Assembly: GCF_000196175.1 (NCBI RefSeq)
Contig: NC_005363.1
Span: forward strand, 3,348,001-3,412,000
Length of the DNA: 64,000 nt
Direction of reading: 5' to 3'
DNA from: Bdellovibrio bacteriovorus HD100
Lineage (GTDB): Bacteria > Bdellovibrionota > Bdellovibrionia > Bdellovibrionales > Bdellovibrionaceae
Under the pieces are notes generated by a model. It searched no databases and was not told where the DNA came from. It worked only from the letters and a program-made list of their open reading frames with translations. Position numbers and translations under genes: made by a program. Positions 8,383 through 20,505 of this stretch are shown here, in pieces. The stretch's first letter is position 1. The number at the start of each line of letters is the position of its first letter.

Positions 8383-8420
8383 AAATGCCGGCAACAGTTC
8401 TGTCGCCGGCATTTGTTTTT
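8383..8420. terminator. Bidirectional terminator between the small exported protein and hemB
   Basis: A perfect 10-bp stem, AAATGCCGGC (8383-8392) with GCCGGCATTT (8405-8414), is followed by GTTTTTT on the plus strand and by TTTCTTTT on the minus strand. It serves both convergent genes. Confidence 0.85.
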
Positions 8421-9406
8421 TAATTGCGATTATCGCGAAGCCACTGGGCCATATCCAGGGCGAAGTACGTAAAGATCACATCTGCACCCGCCCGGCGGAT
8501 GGAATAAAGAGTTTCCACCATACCGCGGGTTTCATCCATGATGCCGGCCTTGTGACCGGCCTTGATCAAACTGTATTCACCACTGACATTGTAAGCCGCC
8601 ACTGGCAAGTTGGTGTGGGCTTTCACTTTCGCGATCACATCCAGATAACTCAAAGCAGGCTTCACCATGACCATGTCGGCACCCTCGGCCACATCCAGGT
8701 CAATCTCACGCAAAGCCTCACGCGTGTTACGATAATCCATCTGGTAGGTTTTTTTATCGCCGAATTTTGGCGCCGAATCCAACGCCTCACGGAACGGGCC
8801 ATAGAAGCAGGACGCGTATTTCACCGAGTAAGAAAGAATCCCCGTGTTGGTGAAACCCTCGTTGTCCAAAGCTTCACGAATCGCCCCCACCCGGCCATCC
8901 ATCATGTCCGACGGGGACACGATATCAGCCCCGGCGCGCGCATGAACCAAGGACATCTTCGCCAGCAGCTCAACGGTTTCGTCATTCAGGATTTTGCCGT
9001 TTTCCACCACACCATCATGACCGTCAGAGGAATACGGATCCAAAGCCACGTCGGTGATTAAAGTCACGTCCGGGAACTTGTCGCGAATCATTTTGAGAGT
9101 CGTGGGCATTAAGCCATTCGGATTCAAAGATTCAGTTCCGTACTTGTCTTTTTTGGACTCTGGCAGGGCTGGGAAAAGGTCGAAGGACTTGACCCCCAAT
9201 GCCACGGCTTTTTCGATCAGTTTCAAGGTCAGGTCCGGGCTCAGGCGATAGATCCCCGGCATTGTGGAAATGGCCTGCTGTTGGTCCTTTCCATCCACCA
9301 AAAACAGCGGTAAAACCAGCTGCGATGCACGCAGCTCTGTTTCAGCCACCATTTGGCGCAAAGCTTCTGTCGTACGATTTCTTCTCGGTCTTTGAGTGAG
9401 TTTCAT
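8420..9406 (-). CDS. hemB: Delta-aminolevulinic acid dehydratase (porphobilinogen synthase)
   Basis: Condenses two 5-aminolevulinate molecules to porphobilinogen. The 328-residue protein has both Schiff-base lysines, K196 (SVKYASCFYGPF) and K249 (VMVKPALSYLD). The metal segment reads DVALDPYSSDGHDG, with Asp/Ala/Ser in place of the three zinc cysteines, so this is the magnesium-type enzyme rather than the zinc type. GGAGG six bases upstream fixes the ATG at 9406; a longer reading frame upstream lacks a ribosome binding site. It is transcribed divergently from the rest of the haem genes, sharing a 122-base control region with hemA. Confidence 0.96.
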   Translation of the reverse strand: MKLTQRPRRNRTTEALRQMVAETELRASQLVLPLFLVDGKDQQQAISTMPGIYRLSPDLTLKLIEKAVALGVKSFDLFPALPESKKDKYGTESLNPNGLMPTTLKMIRDKFPDVTLITDVALDPYSSDGHDGVVENGKILNDETVELLAKMSLVHARAGADIVSPSDMMDGRVGAIREALDNEGFTNTGILSYSVKYASCFYGPFREALDSAPKFGDKKTYQMDYRNTREALREIDLDVAEGADMVMVKPALSYLDVIAKVKAHTNLPVAAYNVSGEYSLIKAGHKAGIMDETRGMVETLYSIRRAGADVIFTYFALDMAQWLRDNRN

Positions 9407-9503
9407 AATCGGCCTCCACCCTGGGGTCTTAAATTGGGTCATCTGCTTAAATAACAGGCAGACTTTTGCATGAGCCATGACATTTCGATGACACTTTAAT
9501 GAA

Positions 9504-9520
9504 AGGTTAGTGATAAACCT
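9504..9520. promoter_or_regulatory. Inverted repeat just upstream of hemA
   Basis: AGGTT (9504-9508) and AACCT (9516-9520) flank a 7-base spacer, nine bases before the hemA ATG in the hemA-hemB divergent region. It could be an operator or affect hemA translation; the arms are short. No good Shine-Dalgarno sequence sits in front of hemA. Confidence 0.3.
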
Positions 9521-9528
9521 AATCCTAC

Positions 9529-10437
9529 ATGGAAGATATACTTCTCGTTCACAGAAAATCCAATAGAAACTTCTCTGAAGAATTCGCAGCTCTGCAAGAC
9601 GCCGCGATCTTCAAGACGTGTCTGCGCAAGATCCTTTTCTGCACAGAAATGGAACTGGGCAACTATGCGGATGTGATTGAACCGGAAGACACTGTTCTTC
9701 GTGGCGAAAAGGCACTGAGTCTTTTGCTTGAGATTCTGTGCGGCCTTCACTCCCCGATCGTGGGCGAGACTGAAGTCTTCGGTCAGTTCAAACTTTTCGT
9801 CGATTCCCGCAAACAAATTCAGGACCCCTTGTTCGGAGATCACCAGAAATGGCTGAACTTCATCATGGCGGAAGTGAAGAAAACGCGCGCCCAGCATCTT
9901 GTGGGCCTGGGATCCCAAAGCTACGGCAGTCTTTTGCGTCGCTACACAAAAGACATGGACTCTGTCACCATCTGCGGTTCTGGCCATCTGGCTCAGGAAA
10001 TCCTTCCGTGGCTGGCTTTGAAAAAGTCCGTTCAGGTGATCTGCCGTGAACCTGCAAAAATGCAGGCCTTCGCCGATAAATACGACAATCTTACCATTTC
10101 CACTTACAATGATGCTTTTATTCACGGCGAAGCTTTGGTGATTGCTGCACCACTTACTGATGAGCGCATTGTGGAGCTGATGAACAAACAAGACACTCGC
10201 CCTCACGCGGTCTATGACCTGCGCGGGGAAGCGAACGCCCTTTCGGACATCGTTGCATCGCAATTCTCTCATGTGGGTTTCATGGGTCTTAACAAATTCT
10301 TTGCTGAGATCGAGGAAACCAAAAAAGACACCACCACCAAACTGGAGGCTTTGAAAGCCGCTCTGCTTGAGCGCGCATTGGCCTTCACACAAAGGACAGA
10401 GCTTCGCCCACTTGGTTGGGACGACATATGCGCTTAA
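9529..10437 (+). CDS. hemA: Glutamyl-tRNA reductase, unusually short and divergent
   Basis: First committed step of the C5 haem pathway, making glutamate-1-semialdehyde from glutamyl-tRNA with NADPH. At 302 residues it is far below the usual 410-480. Visible landmarks are a cysteine in KTCLRK (C31) where the family has TCNR, GLHSPIVGETEVFGQ (72-86) matching the GLxSxxxGExxILGQ motif, and a Rossmann segment TICGSGHLAQE (147-157). Part of the N-terminal domain and most of the C-terminal dimerisation helix seem missing. Operon position with hemC and hemL makes the role nearly certain. It overlaps hemC by ten bases. Confidence 0.85.
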   Translation: MEDILLVHRKSNRNFSEEFAALQDAAIFKTCLRKILFCTEMELGNYADVIEPEDTVLRGEKALSLLLEILCGLHSPIVGETEVFGQFKLFVDSRKQIQDPLFGDHQKWLNFIMAEVKKTRAQHLVGLGSQSYGSLLRRYTKDMDSVTICGSGHLAQEILPWLALKKSVQVICREPAKMQAFADKYDNLTISTYNDAFIHGEALVIAAPLTDERIVELMNKQDTRPHAVYDLRGEANALSDIVASQFSHVGFMGLNKFFAEIEETKKDTTTKLEALKAALLERALAFTQRTELRPLGWDDICA

Positions 10438-11936
10438 GAATTTCCGCAAGGAAAAGTGATCTGGCCCGTCTCCAGGCCTACATGGTCGGAGACGCTCTGA
10501 AAGAAAAAAATCCACAGATCGAAATCGACTACCGTTTTCGCGAATCCCTGGGTGATAAGAACCTGACCGATCCTCTTTGGAAGATTCCGGAAAAAGGCGT
10601 CTTCACCGAGGACTTCTTCGGCGAGCTTTTGCGTGATGAAACCGATCTGGTCGTGCACTCCTGGAAAGACCTGCCAACAGAGCACAAATCCGAAACAGTG
10701 ATTGCCGCGACATTGCCGCGTGCGGATCAGCGCGACCTGCTGCTGGTGAAAAAGTCCCATTTCGACAAAATCAAGACCAGCAAAACACTGAAAGTGTTCA
10801 GCTCGTCCCCACGCCGCGAATACAACCTGACAGGGTTCTTCAAAGAACACCTGCCGTTTGGTTTGCAGGACGTAAAATTTGAAAGTGTGCGCGGAAACAT
10901 GCTGACTCGCGTGCGCAAGCTGATTGAGTCCCCGGAAACCGACGGCCTGATCGTGGCCAAAGCCGCCTTTGACCGTTTGTTCTCTGCGACCTTGCCGGAA
11001 TTCCTGGAAGGCCAGCAGCAGCTGCGCCAGTATTTCAACGAACTGAACTGGGTGGTTCTGCCACTGAGTGTGAATCCCAATGCCGCAGCCCAAGGGGCCT
11101 TGGCGGTGGAAGTCCTGAAGTCCCGTCAGGACCTGCAGGATCTTTTGCAGTCCATCCACCATGCTGACACCTTCCATTGCTCCCAAAAAGAGCGTGATGT
11201 TCTTTCCAGCTTCGGCGGCGGCTGCCACCAGAAAATCGGCGTTGCCGTGCTGGCCCGCCCTTATGGTCAAATCACCCTGCTAAAAGGGTTGACTGACGCA
11301 GGCCAGGTTCTGGACAAACGCGAGCTGAAACTGAACAATCCAGCGCCACAATTTGCTGCACAGGACCTGTGGTCTTCTGAAGTGACGGCCGAGCGTGAGG
11401 CCCTTAAAAGCTATCAGATTCCAGCTGGCACCAACGGACTGTTTGTCGCCCGCAGCGAGGCTTGGCCGGCGGACCTGAAGTGGTCTGATTTTGTATGGAC
11501 AGCGGGCCTAAAAACGTGGAAAAACCTCTCTCAAAAAGGTATATGGGTGCACGGATGTGCGGAAAGCCTGGGCGAACAGGAAGAAGCCCTTATGGATATC
11601 CTGGCCGGCAAGAAACTGGCTTGGGCCAAACTGAGCCACGAGGACGGTTACGCTTCTGATCAGGAAAACATGACTCTGGTACCGACCTATACGCTGAAAG
11701 CGCAACAGGAATACCAGAATCTGTCGGGCAAGAAGTTTTACTTCTGGAGCAGCGGCAGTCAGTTCCTGAAAGCGGCCGAACAAGAGCCGGGAATTTTATC
11801 CCAGCACCACGCCTCCGGACCGGGCAACACCCACAAAGTGATCCGATCCTATCTGGAAGAAAACAAGAATTACGATCCCAAACGACTGCATGTCTTTTTG
11901 GATCAGGAAGACTGGAGAAAACAATGCACAAAGTAA
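10428..11936 (+). CDS. hemC: Hydroxymethylbilane synthase fused to a HemD-like domain
   Basis: A 502-residue protein from ATG 10428. Residues 1-300 are Hem[13 protein letters not shown] holds the catalytic aspartate (D81) and [10 protein letters not shown] the cysteine (C266) that binds the dipyrromethane cofactor. HemC normally ends near 310. Residues 310-502 are an extra domain with the size of uroporphyrinogen III synthase (HemD), for example the segments [12 protein letters not shown] and [15 protein letters not shown], which resemble the HemD 'F-x-S-x-x-x' and 'FTS' positions. No other hemD is seen in the operon, so a bifunctional HemCD is the best reading. HemC is certain; HemD is inference, since HemD sequences diverge strongly. 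The stop lies inside hemL. Confidence 0.9.
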
Positions 11937-13204
11937 CTTCTGAAGAACTTTTCCAACGCGCCCTGAAAGTCGCTCCGGGTGGAGTTCACTCCCCGGTTCG
12001 TTCGTTCAAGGGTCTTGACCGCGCTCCGGTCTTCTTCAAAAAAGCCGAAGGTGCTTACCTGACTTCCGTTGAAGACAAAAAATACATCGACTTCTGCCAA
12101 AGCTTTGGCCCGCTGATCCTGGGTCACCTGGATGCGGAAGTGAAGGAAGAAGTTCACCGCATGGTGGACACGGCTTGGACTTTCGGTGCCACTGAAATCT
12201 ATTCCCTGGAGCTGGCGGAATGGATCACCAGCACTTTGCCGTTCATGGAAAAACTGCGCTTTGTATCTTCCGGCACTGAAGCCGTGATGAGTGCTTTGCG
12301 TGTGGCGCGTGCGGCAACAGGTCGCACTAAAATTCTGAAATTTGAAGGCTGCTATCACGGCCACGTCGACAACCTGCTGGTCAAAGCCGGCAGCGGTCTG
12401 GCGGGAACAGCGGCTTCTTCCAGCGCGGGCATCCCGGCGGAAGTGGCGGCTCACACTGTTGTGGCTCCATTGGACGACGAAGCGAAATTGGCTGAAGTGT
12501 TTGCCGCTCAAGGCAAAGACATTGCCGCTGTGATCATTGAACCACTTCCAGCCAACTATGGTCTTTTGGTTCAGCGTCCTGAGTTCCTGAAGAAAGTGGC
12601 TGAACTTTGCGAAAAGAACGGCAGCTTGCTGATCTTTGATGAAGTGATCTCGGGCTTCCGCGTGGGCTTGGGTGGCATGGTTGAAAAAACGGGCATCCGC
12701 CCGGACCTTGTGACCTACGGTAAAATCATCGGTGGCGGCTTCCCTGTGGGTTGCTACGGCGGCAAAGCCGAACTGATGAACATGGTGGCCCCAAGTGGTG
12801 ACGTCTATCAGGCCGGAACTTTGAGCGCGAATCCGATCGGTATGCGTGCGGGTCTGACGACGCTTAAGAAAATGCAGCGTGTGGATGGCTGGAACGTACT
12901 TGAACAAAGAACCAAAAAATTCACTGACGCCATCAAAGCCGGTTTCGTAAAAAAAGGCGTAAACCTTGAGATCAGCCAGGTGGCTTCCTTGTTCTGGATC
13001 CACGGCCCGACGGCAAGTCCGATCCGTTCCATCGACCATATCCCGGCAAACCAAGGTGGCAACTTCAAGAATCTGTTCCTGAAAGCCCTGGATAAAGGTG
13101 TTTATCTGGCGCCAAACGCTTACGAAGTTGGTTTCGTTTCTTTGGCTCACTCTGATGAGCTTTTGGAGCAGGCGGCACAAATTATCGTGGATGCGGCGGA
13201 GTAA
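11924..13204 (+). CDS. hemL: Glutamate-1-semialdehyde 2,1-aminomutase
   Basis: PLP enzyme that makes 5-aminolevulinate. The 426-residue length matches the family. The start region [13 protein letters not shown] is diagnostic, the cofactor aspartate is in [11 protein letters not shown] (D239) and the Schiff-base lysine is K267 in [13 protein letters not shown]. It begins 13 bases inside hemC and its stop TAA directly abuts the ATG of the histidine kinase, so the kinase gene is cotranscribed. Confidence 0.97.
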
Positions 13205-14080
13205 ATGACTAAATCCTTCCTCAAACCCCATATCAAGACGGCATTGGCGATCCTGTGGTTCGCCTTTACCTTCTCGCTGGTGGGTTGGTGGTGGGTTTAC
13301 TTCCTGCTGAAACTCAGCCCTGAAAACGCTTCACTTGAACAGATGAGAACCTCTCACCGCATGTTTGCGTGGGAAGGTTCGATCCTGCTGGCGGCGATCC
13401 TGTTTGGCGGGATTGCTTTGGTGATCTTCACCTACCGCGATCAAAAGCGCCACCAGCGCCTGCGCTTCTTCTTTTCAACGTTCAGCCATGACATCAAAAC
13501 CTCTATCGCCCGTCTGCGCCTGCAGGCCGAAGTGCTGGAAGAGGATTTGAACACAACATCGCATCCGGTGATGAAACGCCTGATCCAGGACATTCAGCGT
13601 CTGGATCTGCAACTTGAAAATTCCCTGCTGCTGGCCAACCTTGAGGCCGGTCAGCTGTTGAAAGAACAGGTGTCTTTAAGTGATCTTCTGTCCAGTCTGC
13701 GCAGTGAGTTTTCCGAACTTACTGTGGAGCTTGAACGCGAAGCCAAAATCCTTGGCGACCGTCGCGCGCTATTAAGTGTTCTGCGCAATCTTCTGCAGAA
13801 TTCAGTCTTGCACGGCAAAGCCACCACGGTGAAAATCCGCGTGCGCCCCCACGGCGAGGGCCACATCGAACTGGTGATCCAGGATGACGGTCTGGGCTTT
13901 AAGGGTATTCTAAAAAAACTAGGCTCCGAGATTCTGATGTCCCAGGATGTGCGCAGCAACGGCATAGGTTTGCTGCTGACAAAACGTCTTCTGGAAAAGA
14001 TGAACGGCGACATCTGGTTTGAATCGAAGGAAAACGAAGGCTTCAAATCCCATATTGAACTTGAAGGGACTTTGCCATGA
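13205..14080 (+). CDS. Membrane sensor histidine kinase inside the haem operon
   Basis: A 291-residue kinase with two membrane segments (about 13-36 and 57-77) enclosing only some 20 periplasmic residues, so it probably senses within or near the membrane or through a partner. The H-box is FSTFSHDIKTSIARLRLQ (phospho-acceptor H95). The ATPase domain has the N-box QNSVLHG, the G1 box QDDGLGFKG and the G2 box SNGIGLLLTKRLLEKM. Start follows the hemL stop without a gap; stop overlaps the response regulator by four bases. Its placement between hemL and hemE suggests control of, or by, haem or precursor level. The signal is not visible from sequence. Confidence 0.9.
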   Translation: MTKSFLKPHIKTALAILWFAFTFSLVGWWWVYFLLKLSPENASLEQMRTSHRMFAWEGSILLAAILFGGIALVIFTYRDQKRHQRLRFFFSTFSHDIKTSIARLRLQAEVLEEDLNTTSHPVMKRLIQDIQRLDLQLENSLLLANLEAGQLLKEQVSLSDLLSSLRSEFSELTVELEREAKILGDRRALLSVLRNLLQNSVLHGKATTVKIRVRPHGEGHIELVIQDDGLGFKGILKKLGSEILMSQDVRSNGIGLLLTKRLLEKMNGDIWFESKENEGFKSHIELEGTLP

Positions 14081-14751
14081 GAAAAATCCTTCTGGTTGAA
14101 GATGACATCTCTTTGGGTGAAACCCTGAATGCACGCCTGCAAAGGGACTATGAAGTTTCCTGGGCAAAATCCTTGAGCGAGGCCTGGTCCCTGTTTTCAA
14201 AAACCAAGGACTATGACCTGGCAATTCTGGACGTGGGCCTGCCTGATGGCAGCGGTTTTGAGCTTGCGGCAAAACTAAAAGCCACCGCTCCCATCCTGTT
14301 CCTGTTCCTGACGGCACAAGCCGATGCGGAATCCCGTCTGCAGGGATTTGAGTTGGGCGCAGAAGAATACATCCCCAAGCCTTTCCATTTGAAAGAGCTT
14401 TTGATTCGCGTAAAGCATGTGCTGGATGCCCATGCCCCGACCCGCGAACTGCAACTGGAATCCTGCGTGGTGAACTTCACGCAGATGTCCGTGACGAAGA
14501 AAACCGGTCAGATTGAGTACCCGCCGGTGACGGATCTGAAGATCCTGCAGCTTTTGATTGAAAAATCACCACGGGTGCTAAGCCGTGATGAAATTATGAA
14601 CGAAATCTGGGGCGTTGATAAAAATCCCAGCCATCGCACTATCGACAACATTATCGTACGCCTGCGCCAGCTTTTGGGCGATGACGGAGAAAAACACATC
14701 CGTTCTGTTCGCGGCGTCGGTTATCAATGGTCCACTGAGGAGGCAACATGA
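14077..14751 (+). CDS. OmpR/PhoB-family response regulator inside the haem operon
   Basis: A 224-residue regulator. The receiver (1-118) has the acidic pair D9-D10, phospho-acceptor D52 in ILDVGLPDGSG, and K101 in IPKPF. The winged-helix DNA-binding domain (about 128-222) has VLSRDEIMNEIWG, the recognition-helix region SHRTIDNIIVRLRQLLG and the closing RGVGYQW. It is coupled by ATGA overlaps to the kinase before it and to hemE after it. It is the natural partner of the kinase. Whether it controls this operon cannot be told from the sequence. Confidence 0.93.
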   Translation: MRKILLVEDDISLGETLNARLQRDYEVSWAKSLSEAWSLFSKTKDYDLAILDVGLPDGSGFELAAKLKATAPILFLFLTAQADAESRLQGFELGAEEYIPKPFHLKELLIRVKHVLDAHAPTRELQLESCVVNFTQMSVTKKTGQIEYPPVTDLKILQLLIEKSPRVLSRDEIMNEIWGVDKNPSHRTIDNIIVRLRQLLGDDGEKHIRSVRGVGYQWSTEEAT

Positions 14752-15767
14752 ACACTTTATTCCACAACGCACTTAAAAGAACTCCTCAGGCTGTTCCACC
14801 CATCTGGTTCATGCGCCAGGCGGGCCGCTATCACAAACACTATCAGGGCATGCGCGCCAATCATTCTTTTGACCAGCTTTGCAAACGCGCGGAGCTGGCG
14901 GCGGAAGTCGCCCGTGGCCCGGTAGCCGAATTTGATTTCGACGTTTCCATCCTTTTCAGCGATATTTTGTATCCGCTGGAAGCTCTGGGCATGGGCTTGG
15001 AATACACCGATCACGGCCCGCAACTGGGTTTCAAACTGACTCCGGAAACCATCGGCACGTTGGGTGGTGTGGAAGAAGCAGTTAAGTTTATGCACTTCCA
15101 GAAAGAAGCCGTGCAAGCGACTCGCGCGGTTCTGCCTTCCAATAAAAGTCTGATTGGCTTTGTGGGCGGTCCTTGGACCTTGTTCGTTTACGCAGTGGAA
15201 GGATCCCACGCAGGTTCTTTGATCCAGTCCAAGAAACTGGCTCCGATGTTCCCGCAGTTCCTGGAAAAGATGTACCCGCTGCTCAAAGAAAACATCCGCC
15301 TGCAACTGGAAGGTGGCGTTGAGATCGTGATGATCTTCGACACCGCTGCCGGCGAAGTTTCACCTCTGTTCTTCCAGGAATGGATCCAGCCGGTATTGGC
15401 CCGTCTGTCTCAGGACTATCCGGGCAAGATCGGTTACTATTCCAAAGGCACCCAGGCGGTGTTCTTCAATGACGCCTTCAAGGCACTGCCATGGGCAGGT
15501 CAGGGCTTCGACCACAGAAATTATCTTCCGGATTGCTTCAACATCCAGAACAAAGGCTTCGTTCAGGGCAACTTCGACCAAAGCTTGCTGTTCATGGATG
15601 AGGCTGACTTCAAAAAGGCGATGCACACCTACCTTGCGCCAATGAAGAACATGAGCAAAGAACAGCGCGCCGGCTGGGTCAGCGGCCTGGGCCATGGTGT
15701 TTTGCCGAAAACTCCTGAAAAGAATGTAAAACTGTTCGTAGATACTGTCCGTGAGGTGCTGTCATGA
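14748..15767 (+). CDS. hemE: Uroporphyrinogen decarboxylase
   Basis: Removes four carboxyl groups from uroporphyrinogen III to give coproporphyrinogen III. The 339-residue protein starts with the family signature PPIWFMRQAGRYHKHY and has the catalytic aspartate segment ILFSDILYPLEALG and the YSKGTQAVF and GLGHGVLPKTPEKNV blocks near the C-terminus. Length matches the family. Overlapping ATGA junctions with the response regulator and with hemN show tight coupling. Confidence 0.97.
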   Translation: MNTLFHNALKRTPQAVPPIWFMRQAGRYHKHYQGMRANHSFDQLCKRAELAAEVARGPVAEFDFDVSILFSDILYPLEALGMGLEYTDHGPQLGFKLTPETIGTLGGVEEAVKFMHFQKEAVQATRAVLPSNKSLIGFVGGPWTLFVYAVEGSHAGSLIQSKKLAPMFPQFLEKMYPLLKENIRLQLEGGVEIVMIFDTAAGEVSPLFFQEWIQPVLARLSQDYPGKIGYYSKGTQAVFFNDAFKALPWAGQGFDHRNYLPDCFNIQNKGFVQGNFDQSLLFMDEADFKKAMHTYLAPMKNMSKEQRAGWVSGLGHGVLPKTPEKNVKLFVDTVREVLS

Positions 15768-17113
15768 TGAAAGATCTGCTGGCTAAATACGACGTACCGG
15801 TTCCCCGTTACACTTCCTATCCGACCGTGCCTTACTGGGAAACCAATCCCACCACGGATCAGTGGGTGCAGCATCTGCGCGCCACTTTGAAAGAAGGCAC
15901 TGGCGGCTGGTCCCTGTACCTGCATATTCCTTTCTGCGAAAGTCTTTGTACTTTCTGCGGTTGCAACAACATCATCACCAAAGACCACAAGCGTGAAACA
16001 CCGTACGTGGATATGGTTTTGAAAGAATGGCAGCTGTATCTGGATCAGGTTCCCGAGCTTTTGGAAAAACCGCTGAAACACATCCACTTGGGTGGCGGCA
16101 CACCGACGTTCCTGTCGGCGGAGGCTTTGACCCAGTTGCTGAAACCGATTCTTTCCCGCGTAAAAATCGATACCCATGATTTTGAAGGTTCCATCGAAGT
16201 GGATCCTCGCCGCACCAATGCGGCTCAGTTGAAAGCTTTGCGAGAGCTGGGCTTCAACCGTGTCAGCATGGGTGTTCAGGATTTCCATCCCGAAGTGCAG
16301 CGTCTGGTAAACCGTATTCAGCCTTTGGAAATCACCCAGAAGCTGACTCAGGACGCGCGCGACATGGGTTATACATCCGTGAACTTTGACTTGATCTATG
16401 GATTGGCTCGCCAGACCCCGGAATCCATCACAGAAACGGCAAAGGCAACCGTGGCTTTGCGCCCGGATCGTATTGCTTTGTACAGCTTTGCCCTGGTTCC
16501 TTGGATCAAGCCGGCGCAGCGTCTGTTTAAGGACGAGGACCTGCCAAAGGCTTCTGAAAAACGCAGACTGTATGAAATCGCCCGTGGCATCCTGATCGAA
16601 GGTGGTTACGTGGAAGTGGGCATGGATCATTTTGCCCTTCCAACCGACAACCTTTGCATTGCGATGAATGAAAAACGCCTGCACAGAAACTTTATGGGTT
16701 ACACCGATCAGCGCACGGATGTATTGCTGGGCATGGGTGTGTCTTCGATCTCTGAAACTCCTTACAGCTTCCATCAAAACGAAAAAGTTCTTCCGCTTTA
16801 TGAAGCGGCTTTGAACGAAGGCCGCCTGCCAACTTTGCGCGGGCACATTTTGACTGAGGAAGACAAAGTCCGTCGTGAGCAGATCTTGAATCTGATGACG
16901 AACTTTGAAGTGCCATTCGTCAGTGAGGCGCAGGAAAACCAATCCAAGGAATTCCTGGCTGAAATGATCAAGGACGAACTGGTTGAGATCAAGGACCACA
17001 AGCTGATGGTGAACGAAGCCGGACGCCCATTCCTGAGAAATGCCTGTGCATTTTTCGATGAGCGCTTGAAAACCAAACAACCACAGACCAAAATCTTCTC
17101 TCAATCCATATGA
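15764..17113 (+). CDS. hemN: Oxygen-independent coproporphyrinogen III oxidase
   Basis: Radical-SAM enzyme making protoporphyrinogen IX. The cluster motif is C58-x3-C62-x2-C65 followed by G-C67 (FCESLCTFCGCNN), the arrangement of true HemN rather than the HemW/HutW paralogues. The length (449) and the HLGGGTPTFL and IDLIYGLARQTPES-like segments (here NFDLIYGLARQTPES) agree. It overlaps hemE by four bases and hemG by four. Use of the oxygen-independent enzyme alongside an FAD-dependent protoporphyrinogen oxidase is notable. Confidence 0.96.
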   Translation: MMKDLLAKYDVPVPRYTSYPTVPYWETNPTTDQWVQHLRATLKEGTGGWSLYLHIPFCESLCTFCGCNNIITKDHKRETPYVDMVLKEWQLYLDQVPELLEKPLKHIHLGGGTPTFLSAEALTQLLKPILSRVKIDTHDFEGSIEVDPRRTNAAQLKALRELGFNRVSMGVQDFHPEVQRLVNRIQPLEITQKLTQDARDMGYTSVNFDLIYGLARQTPESITETAKATVALRPDRIALYSFALVPWIKPAQRLFKDEDLPKASEKRRLYEIARGILIEGGYVEVGMDHFALPTDNLCIAMNEKRLHRNFMGYTDQRTDVLLGMGVSSISETPYSFHQNEKVLPLYEAALNEGRLPTLRGHILTEEDKVRREQILNLMTNFEVPFVSEAQENQSKEFLAEMIKDELVEIKDHKLMVNEAGRPFLRNACAFFDERLKTKQPQTKIFSQSI

Positions 17114-18327
17114 AAACAGTGCATGTAATCGGCGCGGGCTTTGCGGGACTGACAGTGTCCCTGAGGCTCGCCCAAAAAGGCTTTCAGGTAGAACTTTATG
17201 AATCCTCGGACCGTGTCGGGGGATTGCTGGGTACTGACCAGACACCTTATGGCATCGCCGAACGTGCCGCCAACGCCCTGATTCGCACCGAAAAAGCCGA
17301 AGGCCTTTTCAGCGAACTGGGGCTGACTCCCAGTTTTCCCCTGGAGTCCTCTAAAAAACGTTTCCTTTTCCGCAATTCACCGAAGGCATGGCCGCTGACC
17401 TTCCTGGAGACACTGACCCTGATCGGCCGTGTGCTTCCCCGTGTTTTGATCGGCGGAAAAAAAGTCCTGCGCCCTCAGGCCGGAGAAACCCTTCTGAACT
17501 GGGGCGAGCGCAGAATCGGCAAAGCTCCGACAAGATTTCTGCTGGGCCCTGCGATGCAGGGAATTTACGGCAATGAGATCACCCATCTTAGCGCCAGTTT
17601 GATTCTGGGTCCGCTCTTTTCCGGTGCCAAGCGCAGCAAATACAAAGGTCTTCTGACCGGCCCCGGCGGAATGCAGGACCTGGTGGACCATCTGCAAACC
17701 CGACTGCAGGAATTGGGTGTAAAGATTCACCTGAATTCCAATGTGAACCTGGCCTCTCTTGAAGGGCCGGTGGTTCTTGCGACCTCTGCAAAGGCCGCAA
17801 GCGTGCTGCTGGCGGAAAAACATCCTGAATTTTCCAAAGTTCTTTCCAAAATTCAGATGTCTTCACTGATGAGTGTGACCTTGTTCTTCACCAAGGCTCA
17901 GGAAGAATTCAAAGGTTTTGGCTGCCTGATACCACGCGGATTTGATCTGAAGGCCCTGGGGGTTCTGATGAATTCCTATATCTTCAAGGACCGCGACAAA
18001 ACCTACAATGAAACATGGATTCTGGGCGGTCAGCAGGAAGAGGCGTTACTGGATCTTCCTGACAACGAAATTCTGAAACTGCTGGCCGACGAACGCTTCC
18101 GCATTCTGGGCCAGAAAGACACCCTGCTGGATTACCGTATCAACCGCTGGAAAAAGGCTTTGCCATTTTATGATCTTAATCTGGAAAACGCCCTGGCGGA
18201 CCTGGCGGAAGTGCCCGAGCCAGCAGGCTTCTATCTGCATGGAAATTATCTAAGCGGTATTGGATTAAGCAAAATTCTGGAACGCAGCGATTGGATCGCC
18301 GAAAAGATTGCGAGTGAACATGGGTAA
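17110..18327 (+). CDS. hemG: Protoporphyrinogen oxidase, FAD-dependent HemY type
   Basis: Oxidises protoporphyrinogen IX to protoporphyrin IX. The 405-residue protein begins with the dinucleotide fold VIGAGFAGLTVSLRLAQKG and YESSDRVGGLLGT, the amine-oxidase/HemY signature, and ends with LHGNYLSGIGLSKILE, the C-terminal FAD-binding block of the family. HemY proteins are usually 450-470 long, so this one is compact. It fits between hemN and hemH, overlapping each. Confidence 0.9.
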   Translation: MKTVHVIGAGFAGLTVSLRLAQKGFQVELYESSDRVGGLLGTDQTPYGIAERAANALIRTEKAEGLFSELGLTPSFPLESSKKRFLFRNSPKAWPLTFLETLTLIGRVLPRVLIGGKKVLRPQAGETLLNWGERRIGKAPTRFLLGPAMQGIYGNEITHLSASLILGPLFSGAKRSKYKGLLTGPGGMQDLVDHLQTRLQELGVKIHLNSNVNLASLEGPVVLATSAKAASVLLAEKHPEFSKVLSKIQMSSLMSVTLFFTKAQEEFKGFGCLIPRGFDLKALGVLMNSYIFKDRDKTYNETWILGGQQEEALLDLPDNEILKLLADERFRILGQKDTLLDYRINRWKKALPFYDLNLENALADLAEVPEPAGFYLHGNYLSGIGLSKILERSDWIAEKIASEHG

Positions 18328-19327
18328 AAAAGGTCTGTTGCTGATCAATATTGGCAGCCCGAAGTCCTATCAAGTCAACGATGTGAAAAAGTACCTCAGT
18401 GAATTCCTGATGGATGAAGATGTCATCACTCTTCCCTATGTTTTGCGCTGGCCGCTGGTTAATCTTTTGATTGTTCCCCGCCGCGCGCCGTTTTCAGCGG
18501 AAAACTACAAAAAAGTCTGGATGAAAGAAGGCTCTCCGATCGCGGTTTACACCCGCCGATTTGCCGCGCTTTTACAGGAAGAATTGAAAGACCAGTTCGT
18601 GGTCAAAGTCGGCTTGCAGTACAGCGAGCCTTCCGTAGAGTCCGCCCTTAAAGACCTGCAACAAGCCGGTGTCGACGAGATTCTGGTGGCCCCGATGTTC
18701 CCGCAGTATGCCGAAGCCACCAATGGCAGCTCATTCAAGCTGGCCGAGCGCATGGCGAAGAAACTTCACCTGACCGCACCGCTTCGCCGCCTGCCTGCAT
18801 TCTTTGACGACGCCTCTTTCGTCGGGACCTCTGTGAAGCTGGTCGAAGAAACCCTGCAGGACAAAGAAGTCGATCACTATCTGTTTTCATTCCACGGTCT
18901 GCCTGAAAGCCACGTGCGCAAGATCCCTGGCTGCCTGACCACCGAAGACTGCTGTTTTGAGAAAAACGCCTGCGCCAAGAACTGCTATCGTGCCCAGTGC
19001 TTTGCCACTGCGACGGCGATTGCTGAATCTCTCAATCTGGCTCCAAGTCACTGGAGTGTCGCCTTCCAGTCCCGTCTGGGGCGTGCAGAATGGCTGAAAC
19101 CAGCAACAGATCACAGCCTGGAAGTGCTGGCCAAAACCGGCAAAAAGAATATCGCCGTGATCTGCCCGTCTTTTGTGGCTGATTGTATTGAGACCCTGGA
19201 AGAAATCGGCATCGGCGGGCAAGAGACCTTCCACGAACACGGCGGTGACCAGTATTATCTGGTCCCTTGCGTGAACGACAACCCGAAGTGGGTTCAGGGC
19301 TTTGCCGATCTGGTGAAAAGCATCTAA
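18320..19327 (+). CDS. hemH: Ferrochelatase with cysteine-rich insert
   Basis: Inserts ferrous iron into protoporphyrin IX, the last step of haem synthesis. ATG 18320 overlaps the hemG stop by eight bases and gives 335 residues beginning MGKKGLLLINIGSP. The catalytic histidine is H192 in FSFHGLPESH, and the conserved glutamate region is ADCIETLEEI. Between residues 205 and 227 there are six cysteines (205, 211, 212, 218, 222, 227). This is the position where one class of bacterial ferrochelatases, typified by the Myxococcus enzyme, carries internal ligands of a [2Fe-2S] cluster. Its stop overlaps that of lrgB on the other strand. Confidence 0.96.
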   Translation: MGKKGLLLINIGSPKSYQVNDVKKYLSEFLMDEDVITLPYVLRWPLVNLLIVPRRAPFSAENYKKVWMKEGSPIAVYTRRFAALLQEELKDQFVVKVGLQYSEPSVESALKDLQQAGVDEILVAPMFPQYAEATNGSSFKLAERMAKKLHLTAPLRRLPAFFDDASFVGTSVKLVEETLQDKEVDHYLFSFHGLPESHVRKIPGCLTTEDCCFEKNACAKNCYRAQCFATATAIAESLNLAPSHWSVAFQSRLGRAEWLKPATDHSLEVLAKTGKKNIAVICPSFVADCIETLEEIGIGGQETFHEHGGDQYYLVPCVNDNPKWVQGFADLVKSI

Positions 19328-20004
19328 GGAATCAAAGAAAGTATCAAAGGCACAATGATGGCGGTCATCAAACCGTTGAGCGCCATCGCCAGCCCCGCAA
19401 AGGCTCCGGCCATCTCGCCGATCTGAAAGGCCCGGACTGTTCCCAGTCCATGGGCCGCAAGTCCCATCGCAAACCCCTTCACGACCGGATCTTTCACCCG
19501 CACCAGTTTCATCACGGTGGTCGCCACCAAAGCACCCACAATCCCGGTGATCATCACAAAGACTGTCGCCAAAGAAGGAGCTCCCCCGATTTTTTCGGCG
19601 ATGCCCATGGCAATCGGAGTCGTTACAGATTTCGGTGTCAGCGACAACAGCACTTCATGCGGAAGCCCCATAAAGGCCCCGATAAACACCGCGCTTAAAA
19701 TTCCCACGGCCGAGCCAATCACCAAAGCCACCATCAAAGGCACCAGCACCCGGCGCAAACGATCCAGTTGATTATATAGTGGCAAAGCCAAAGCCACCGT
19801 TGCCGGACCCAGCATGAAATGAATCGGTCGGACCGCCTGGAAGTATTCACGATAGGGAATTTTAGCAATCAGCAAAACCGCGATGATCGCAAACATGGAA
19901 ATAACCGGCGGACTTAACAAAGGATTGTCCTTTCCCCACGCACTGATGCGTCGGGAGGCCAGATAAAACCCCAGGGTCATGATCAGGGCCCCCAATTCGA
20001 TCAT
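19324..20004 (-). CDS. lrgB: LrgB-family membrane protein
   Basis: A 226-residue polytopic membrane protein with six or seven hydrophobic segments. The segment LSLTPKSVTTPIAMGIAEKI followed by GGAPSLATVFVMITGIVG is the LrgB/CidB signature. The family works with LrgA and has been linked to control of murein hydrolase activity, cell lysis or small-molecule (for example pyruvate or glycolate) transport. The start overlaps the lrgA stop by four bases. The 3' end overlaps hemH by four bases, leaving no room for a terminator between the convergent genes. Confidence 0.9.
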   Translation of the reverse strand: MIELGALIMTLGFYLASRRISAWGKDNPLLSPPVISMFAIIAVLLIAKIPYREYFQAVRPIHFMLGPATVALALPLYNQLDRLRRVLVPLMVALVIGSAVGILSAVFIGAFMGLPHEVLLSLTPKSVTTPIAMGIAEKIGGAPSLATVFVMITGIVGALVATTVMKLVRVKDPVVKGFAMGLAAHGLGTVRAFQIGEMAGAFAGLAMALNGLMTAIIVPLILSLIP

Positions 20005-20354
20005 GGGGCCCCCTTGGTGCCGACTTTCATCAGTTGATGAAACACGAAGGCGGTCATACCCAAAGTGACAACCGTGCTGATCAGCACCGTCACCACCATG
20101 CCCACACCGTATTTGCCGAAAAGGTCGAAGTATTCAATGACCCCGACGCCTGCCGGAACAAAGAAAAGGGCCAGATGGGCGGTAATGGACCGGCTCAGGA
20201 TTTCGACCTTGTCCTTTAATGAAGGGCGCACCAGCAGGGCTATAAAGAAGAAGACCATGCCCAGAACCGGGCCCGGGATAAAGAGCTTAAACAGGGCCAC
20301 CACGGCTTCCCCGAGCAGCTGGAACACTAATAGGATAACAAAGGCCTGAATCAT
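20001..20354 (-). CDS. lrgA: LrgA/CidA-family membrane protein
   Basis: A 117-residue protein with four predicted membrane helices. QLLGEAVVALFKLFIPGPVLGM, read as the family block GE..... PGPVLGM, and FFVPAGVGVIEYFDLF are diagnostic. ATG 20354 is chosen because the first helix begins directly after it; an upstream GTG would add a polar extension. It is the first gene of a two-gene lrgAB operon lying next to a PBP4-type peptidase gene transcribed the other way, so both neighbours may act on the envelope. Confidence 0.87.
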   Translation of the reverse strand: MIQAFVILLVFQLLGEAVVALFKLFIPGPVLGMVFFFIALLVRPSLKDKVEILSRSITAHLALFFVPAGVGVIEYFDLFGKYGVGMVVTVLISTVVTLGMTAFVFHQLMKVGTKGAP

Positions 20355-20505
20355 GCCCCCGACTGTATCCTCCCCCGTTCGGGCCGTCAATTTGCGGCAC
20401 CCCTGACAAAGACCTGAACAGCTTCATGGTCTCCAAACCATTTAAAGCCATCTCAAGGTGGTACAAATCATGAAATACAGCCAGTGTCTCAAAGGAGAGG
20501 TAGTG

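Follow-up and report, generated by a model that had tools for sequence, protein, structure and literature searches.

HssRS is a haem-sensing two-component pair of Gram-positive bacteria. It has an OmpR-type regulator, lies beside the exporter genes hrtAB and responds to toxic haem by exporting it. The closest described relative of the locus studied here is the HemK/HemR pair of Leptospira. Louvel et al. (2008; PMC2266917) reported that L. biflexa needs this pair, there called Hklep/Rrlep, to grow when neither hemin nor 5-aminolevulinic acid (ALA) is supplied. They stated its linkage to hem genes in pathogenic Leptospira and, as "data not shown", also in B. bacteriovorus, and placed the L. biflexa pair away from the hem genes. 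Imelio et al. (2024; PMC11426443) gave the name HemKR and the hem-box, and reported the HemR binding motif after Morero et al. (2014). In their account, ALA, not iron, shuts off phosphorylation of L. biflexa HemR through the phosphatase activity of HemK, and ALA could not be told from later products as the signal. The HemR targets named there for L. biflexa include hmuO and exbB1, and cover uptake and haem oxygenase genes. The hemA operon was reported without significant change in the L. biflexa hemKR knockout (PMC11426443), which indicates that other control exists. Since Louvel et al. stated the linkage in B. bacteriovorus, the embedding of the pair is already published, and both the arrangement and the HemKR system are known. 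In the literature collection searched, no paper names both Bdellovibrio and HemR. This study adds the operator with its phased promoter, the pattern of loss, the sensor residues and a likely transfer.

The window, that is the whole stretch of DNA analysed, comprises 64,000 nucleotides of B. bacteriovorus HD100; searches of the HD100 genome covered its single contig of 3,782,950 bases. A sensor histidine kinase gene, here hemK (13205..14080), and an OmpR-type response regulator gene, here hemR (14077..14751), sit on the plus strand between hemL and hemE. The hemL stop codon TAA ends at 13204 and the kinase ATG begins at 13205, with 0 bases between them. The kinase and regulator genes share 4 bases (14077-14080), as do the regulator gene and hemE (14748-14751). 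These junctions, already described in the first-pass annotation, make cotranscription of the pair with the haem operon very likely. The plus-strand order is hemA-hemCD-hemL-kinase-regulator-hemE-hemN-hemG-hemH. The first gene, hemA (glutamyl-tRNA reductase, 9529..10437), was assigned by PF05201, and hemCD (10428..11936, start read from sequence) by PF01379. The latter encodes porphobilinogen deaminase with a C-terminal extension at the position of uroporphyrinogen synthase in L. interrogans, and a bifunctional homologue is annotated in locus L139. Homologues are also annotated in L139 for hemL (glutamate-1-semialdehyde aminomutase, 11924..13204; PF00202, Aminotran_3), hemN (radical-SAM coproporphyrinogen oxidase, 15764..17113; PF04055) and hemG/hemY (FAD-type protoporphyrinogen oxidase, 17110..18327; PF01593). 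Uroporphyrinogen decarboxylase is encoded by hemE (14748..15767; PF01208, URO-D) and ferrochelatase by hemH (18308..19327; PF00762). The divergent hemB (porphobilinogen synthase) occupies 8420..9478 on the minus strand. PF00490 matches from residue 29 of this ORF, and the true start of hemB probably lies about 70 bases inside it.

The kinase matched the Pfam domains HisKA (6.4e-8) and HATPase_c (1.3e-16), and the regulator matched Response_reg (1.5e-19) and Trans_reg_C (4.2e-18), with D52 aligned with the phospho-acceptor. In L. interrogans the order is hemA-hemCD-hemB-hemL-HK-RR-hemE-hemN. The regulator between hemL and hemE there (HemR) was 52% identical to the window regulator over 225 columns, and the stretch RTIDNxIVRLRQ in the recognition helix was the same in both. 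The kinase was 35% identical to L. interrogans HemK, with H95 and T99 aligned and the T four residues after the H. Among 33 regulator-like matches in the HD100 genome, the best paralogue reached 32% identity. In a plasmid collection of 72,556 records, which includes two L. interrogans replicons carrying this operon, the kinase had 3 matches and was at least 80% covered in the two L. interrogans records only. The same two records were the top regulator matches (52%); the best other among the matches listed was 37%. The closest solved structure to the regulator was the receiver domain 4q7e_A (2.4e-36), followed by a match at 1.3e-25. In B. bacteriovorus strain kdesi (L276) the kinase was 94% identical. 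The pair is orthologous to Leptospira HemK/HemR. The two systems share the hemL-hemE position (L. interrogans), the operator before hemA, the aligned H, T and D residues, and two membrane segments with a short loop. The view in the first-pass annotation that known haem-responsive systems adjoin exporters and do not lie inside biosynthesis operons is wrong, because L. interrogans HemK/HemR lies between hemL and hemE.

In promoters activated by PhoB/OmpR-type regulators, direct half-sites with an 11-bp phase occupy the -35 region, ahead of the -10 element. A site of the same layout, with a different half-site sequence and regulator, precedes hemA in the window. The predicted HemR operator, a hem-box TGACA-N6-TGACA at 9478..9493 on the plus strand, matches the published Leptospira motif exactly and lies 51 bp before the hemA ATG; the hem-box of L. 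interrogans is at -53. A third half-site, TGAAA (9500..9504, plus strand), is in 11-bp phase with the box, may contribute to binding, and is present mainly in the genus Bdellovibrio and a few family members. A -10-like element, TAAACC (9514..9519, plus strand), lies 36 nt from the box start by column alignment of 59 promoters, from which 20 same-genus loci (L108-L127) were left out. In this alignment, 46 of the 59 promoters had a TA...T hexamer whose first base fell exactly 36 nt from the box start, and 7 matches began one base earlier. The final T was present in 86% of the promoters and is missing from the window element. Between box and -10, no other block was equally conserved in the 59 promoters. 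The geometry is that of an activator replacing the -35 element. In the HD100 genome the box with the phased TA occurred once, at hemA, and the controls gave 0. The composite site was found in 33 of 39 genomes; among the matches listed there were 41, against 9 for a reversed control pattern.

Of 93 loci with hemL, 67 carried an exact box no more than 500 bp ahead of the first hem gene recognised; the loci are related, not independent, and span families whose hemL is 52-60% identical to that of the window. Elsewhere on the same strand of the 93 loci, 6 exact boxes occurred in 1.40 Mb, and 4 of these 6 were also before hemA. In the other 26 loci the stretch searched contained no exact box. Eleven of them run off the contig before or near hemA (L083, L094, L096, L099, L106, L229, L231, L255, L265, L266 and L268), and five score 9/10 (L073, L098, L235, L236 and L246). 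In four the exact box ahead of hemA falls outside this stretch (L104, L251, L253 and L254), and two have a 9/10 box further upstream (L249 and L250). Three HemKR loci with upstream sequence present (L241, L262 and L264) had no box of at least 9/10 near the operon; hemA was not recognised in L241. In L257, a hem operon without HemKR, no box was found on that strand. An operator is predicted genome by genome.

We believe it highly probable that the pair is a self-regulating HemK/HemR feedback switch, which activates hemA to hemH including hemKR and shuts down once tetrapyrrole precursors abound. The short membrane kinase HemK would phosphorylate HemR at D52 under low tetrapyrrole supply. Phosphorylated HemR would bind the hem-box in place of a -35 element and activate the operon from hemA through hemCD, hemL, hemK, hemR, hemE, hemN and hemG to hemH, which would give more haem synthesis and more HemK/HemR. 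With plentiful ALA or a later product, HemK would become a phosphatase (T99), HemR would be dephosphorylated and the operon would fall back. This model builds on the observed orthology, gene order, operator sequence and spacing, and joint loss with the pathway. Phosphotransfer, direction of control and off-signal are carried over from L. biflexa and would hold by analogy; we infer that autoregulation is positive and that the regulon in the HD100 genome is mainly local. The incomplete -10 of the window, the three HemKR loci with no box near the operon and the hemA operon that did not change significantly in the L. biflexa knockout speak against the model. The first-pass annotation had suggested that the pair may monitor haem or a porphyrin intermediate. 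That it controls haem synthesis and responds to haem or a precursor is very probable in view of the orthology to Leptospira HemK/HemR, the hem-box before hemA and the ALA shut-off in L. biflexa. What seemed an oddity becomes a known system, which now takes in, beyond one group of spirochaetes, a whole phylum of predators and related bacteria.

The arrangement is conserved. A kinase match of at least 70% over nearly the full length was found in 20 of 23 other genomes of the genus, and the order hemL-kinase-regulator-hemE was kept wherever the fetched contigs were intact, which argues that the arrangement is not due to chance. Within the genus no case of the pair outside a hem operon was found, so the refuting case named in the first-pass annotation did not arise; L. 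biflexa, which does carry the pair elsewhere, belongs to another phylum. The order hemL-hemK-hemR-hemE was present in 91 of 98 fetched Bdellovibrionota loci, which were picked mainly by regulator match, so that the count tells where the regulator sits; of the other 7 loci, 6 are interrupted by the end of a contig and L257 lacks the pair. L257, picked by hemE in genome G030, reads hemB-hemL-hemE-hemN, with hemE following hemL and no two-component pair between them. No ferrochelatase match was found in G030. Across the phylum, the regulator had a match at 1e-31 in 262 of 368 genomes; most of the 262 were counted without inspection, and the weak matches among them include paralogues.

Thirty members of the order were selected for a regulator match that was weak or, at 1e-30, absent. 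No hemE match was found in 19 of the 30. In these 19 genomes, which also lack a close regulator match, hemH was found in none and hemL was missing from 18; the exception is a hemL stretch that lies at the end of a contig in G069 (79% complete). In G008, a genome of the same genus (95% complete), pathway and pair are both lost. A divergent hemE (28-32% identical) was present in 8 of the 30, with the regulator directly beside it in all 8. Lineages that lost haem synthesis have lost HemKR too, and the pair therefore does not persist in lineages that need to import haem. Several Bdellovibrionaceae genomes more than 90% complete, one of them of the same genus, had no match to hemL, hemE or hemH (G008, G044, G045, G046, G048, G053, G054, G055, G059, G062, G064, G070, G079 and others). 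These are apparent haem auxotrophs and perhaps live on prey haem.

Other possible targets of HemR were searched. The HD100 genome has 5 exact boxes. Two inspected boxes adjoin genes without evident haem link, as does one further box, and a wider regulon in this genome was set aside. In 6 of the 7 loci examined (L187-L192, six Bdellovibrio genomes), a lipoprotein gene with mlaE after it has an exact box 84-86 bp upstream. It was rejected as a HemR target because the box overlaps a perfect palindrome, mostly lacks a phased -10 and is absent from HD100. In HD100 (L193), a GC-rich inverted repeat occupies this promoter region. In genome G012 (L158/L205) a di-haem cytochrome c peroxidase gene has an exact box 69 bp upstream; of 21 homologous loci scanned, that of G012 alone had a box, and a shared target was rejected. 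Haem oxygenase (PF01126) had no match in the HD100 genome and drops out as a target here. It was found in 3 of 39 genomes searched, with no 9/10 box in those loci. The system here differs from that of Leptospira in that HD100 lacks a haem oxygenase gene, no counterpart of the L. biflexa targets hmuO and exbB1 was found, and no second target proved to be conserved.

The pair could instead detect toxic or external haem, such as that of prey, in the manner of HssRS, control mainly detoxification or uptake, and ride along in the operon. Both are haem-related two-component systems with an OmpR-type regulator, a likeness drawn from description; an HrtAB exporter was not found next to the pair, whose neighbours are haem-synthesis genes. 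The uptake and haem oxygenase targets reported for L. biflexa HemR (PMC11426443) and the peroxidase box of G012 would fit this reading. However, the composite site occurs in HD100 only at hemA, haem oxygenase is absent from this genome, the peroxidase box is confined to one of the 21 homologous loci scanned, and the pair is lost where haem synthesis is lost. We consider an external-haem detector very improbable. The tie to prey haem proposed in the first-pass annotation likewise found no support, as the pair follows the capacity to make haem and is gone in the 19 relatives without hemE. OmpR-type pairs are common, as the 33 regulator-like matches in HD100 illustrate, and an unrelated pair might have come to lie here neutrally or by chance. 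But the order is kept in 91 of the 98 loci and in Leptospira, and the operator is conserved, which makes chance placement scarcely credible.

Two hydrophobic stretches of the kinase (~10-34 and 55-76) flank a short polar loop, in line with the very small loop described in the first-pass annotation, and Pfam showed no HAMP and no sensor or ligand-binding domain. An AlphaFold2 model of the monomer, of moderate confidence (mean pLDDT 71) and used for helix layout only, has a helix at 3-36, a short turn, and a helix at 44-114 running through the second membrane segment to H95. Across 93 kinases, WW ends the first membrane segment in 89 and a single W in the remaining 4, M...E precedes the second segment in 92, and the loop between varies in length and sequence. 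In the window these residues are W28 and M53...E57. Louvel et al. reported that L. biflexa HemK with residues 31-62 replaced still supported growth (PMC2266917). That replacement kept WW, and the printed primers show that the M...E position was removed. Growth scores the kinase-on state and the known signal is an off-signal, so this test leaves room for sensing through M...E, and we infer that such a role is compatible with it. A pair that controls the hem operon but reads a non-tetrapyrrole cue (redox state, oxygen, iron or membrane state) would also suit a kinase with no ligand-binding domain and, near its loop, strong conservation of W28 and M53...E57 only; a sensor within the membrane could read many cues. 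Imelio et al. cite a rise of L. interrogans hemK/hemR with peroxide and could not separate ALA from later products (PMC11426443). They also found, against this reading, that it is ALA and not iron that stops HemR phosphorylation in L. biflexa, and the pair is conserved with the pathway and lost with it. We therefore think such a cue unlikely and prefer the feedback switch driven by tetrapyrrole supply. The residues around the short loop and the natural operon without HemKR offer handles on the HemK signal.

The regulator tree (87 rows; 15 near-copies omitted, long outgroup branches) grouped four Leptospiraceae beside L229, L230, L231 and L233 (97/96), inside Bdellovibrionota. A concatenated hemL-HK-RR-hemE tree (52 rows, FastTree) gave the same sister group to L. 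interrogans (0.983). Both trees sampled Bdellovibrionota and Leptospiraceae, and they agree on the Leptospira sister group with an unsure root. As in L. interrogans, hemCD is followed by hemB and then hemL in L230, L231 and L233; the L229 sequence ends after hemB. The position of Leptospira HemR inside Bdellovibrionota and the shared hemB position suggest that the operon passed with its regulator into Leptospiraceae. We offer, as a tentative proposal that is possible rather than probable, that operator, phased -10, HemK, HemR and hem enzymes arose in Bdellovibrionota and moved as a block to the ancestor of Leptospiraceae, and that HemK detects tetrapyrrole status in or at the membrane via the conserved W28 and M53...E57 positions on either side of its variable loop. 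If the transfer is true, a pathway crossed from one phylum to another together with its sensor, regulator and promoter. A contig scan with two short sensor-motif patterns, too narrow to exclude other phyla, gave 27 stretches, of which 10 belong to relatives: 4 to Leptospiraceae and 6 to Bdellovibrio or related bacteria.

The layouts differ in detail. In the window hemB is divergent, whereas in L. interrogans it lies inside the operon, and hemH ends the operon here. Linkage of the pair to the hem genes is not strictly required, since L. biflexa carries the two separately. On the minus strand at 19324-20390, two small membrane proteins, which by eye resemble LrgA/LrgB, are encoded convergently with hemH.
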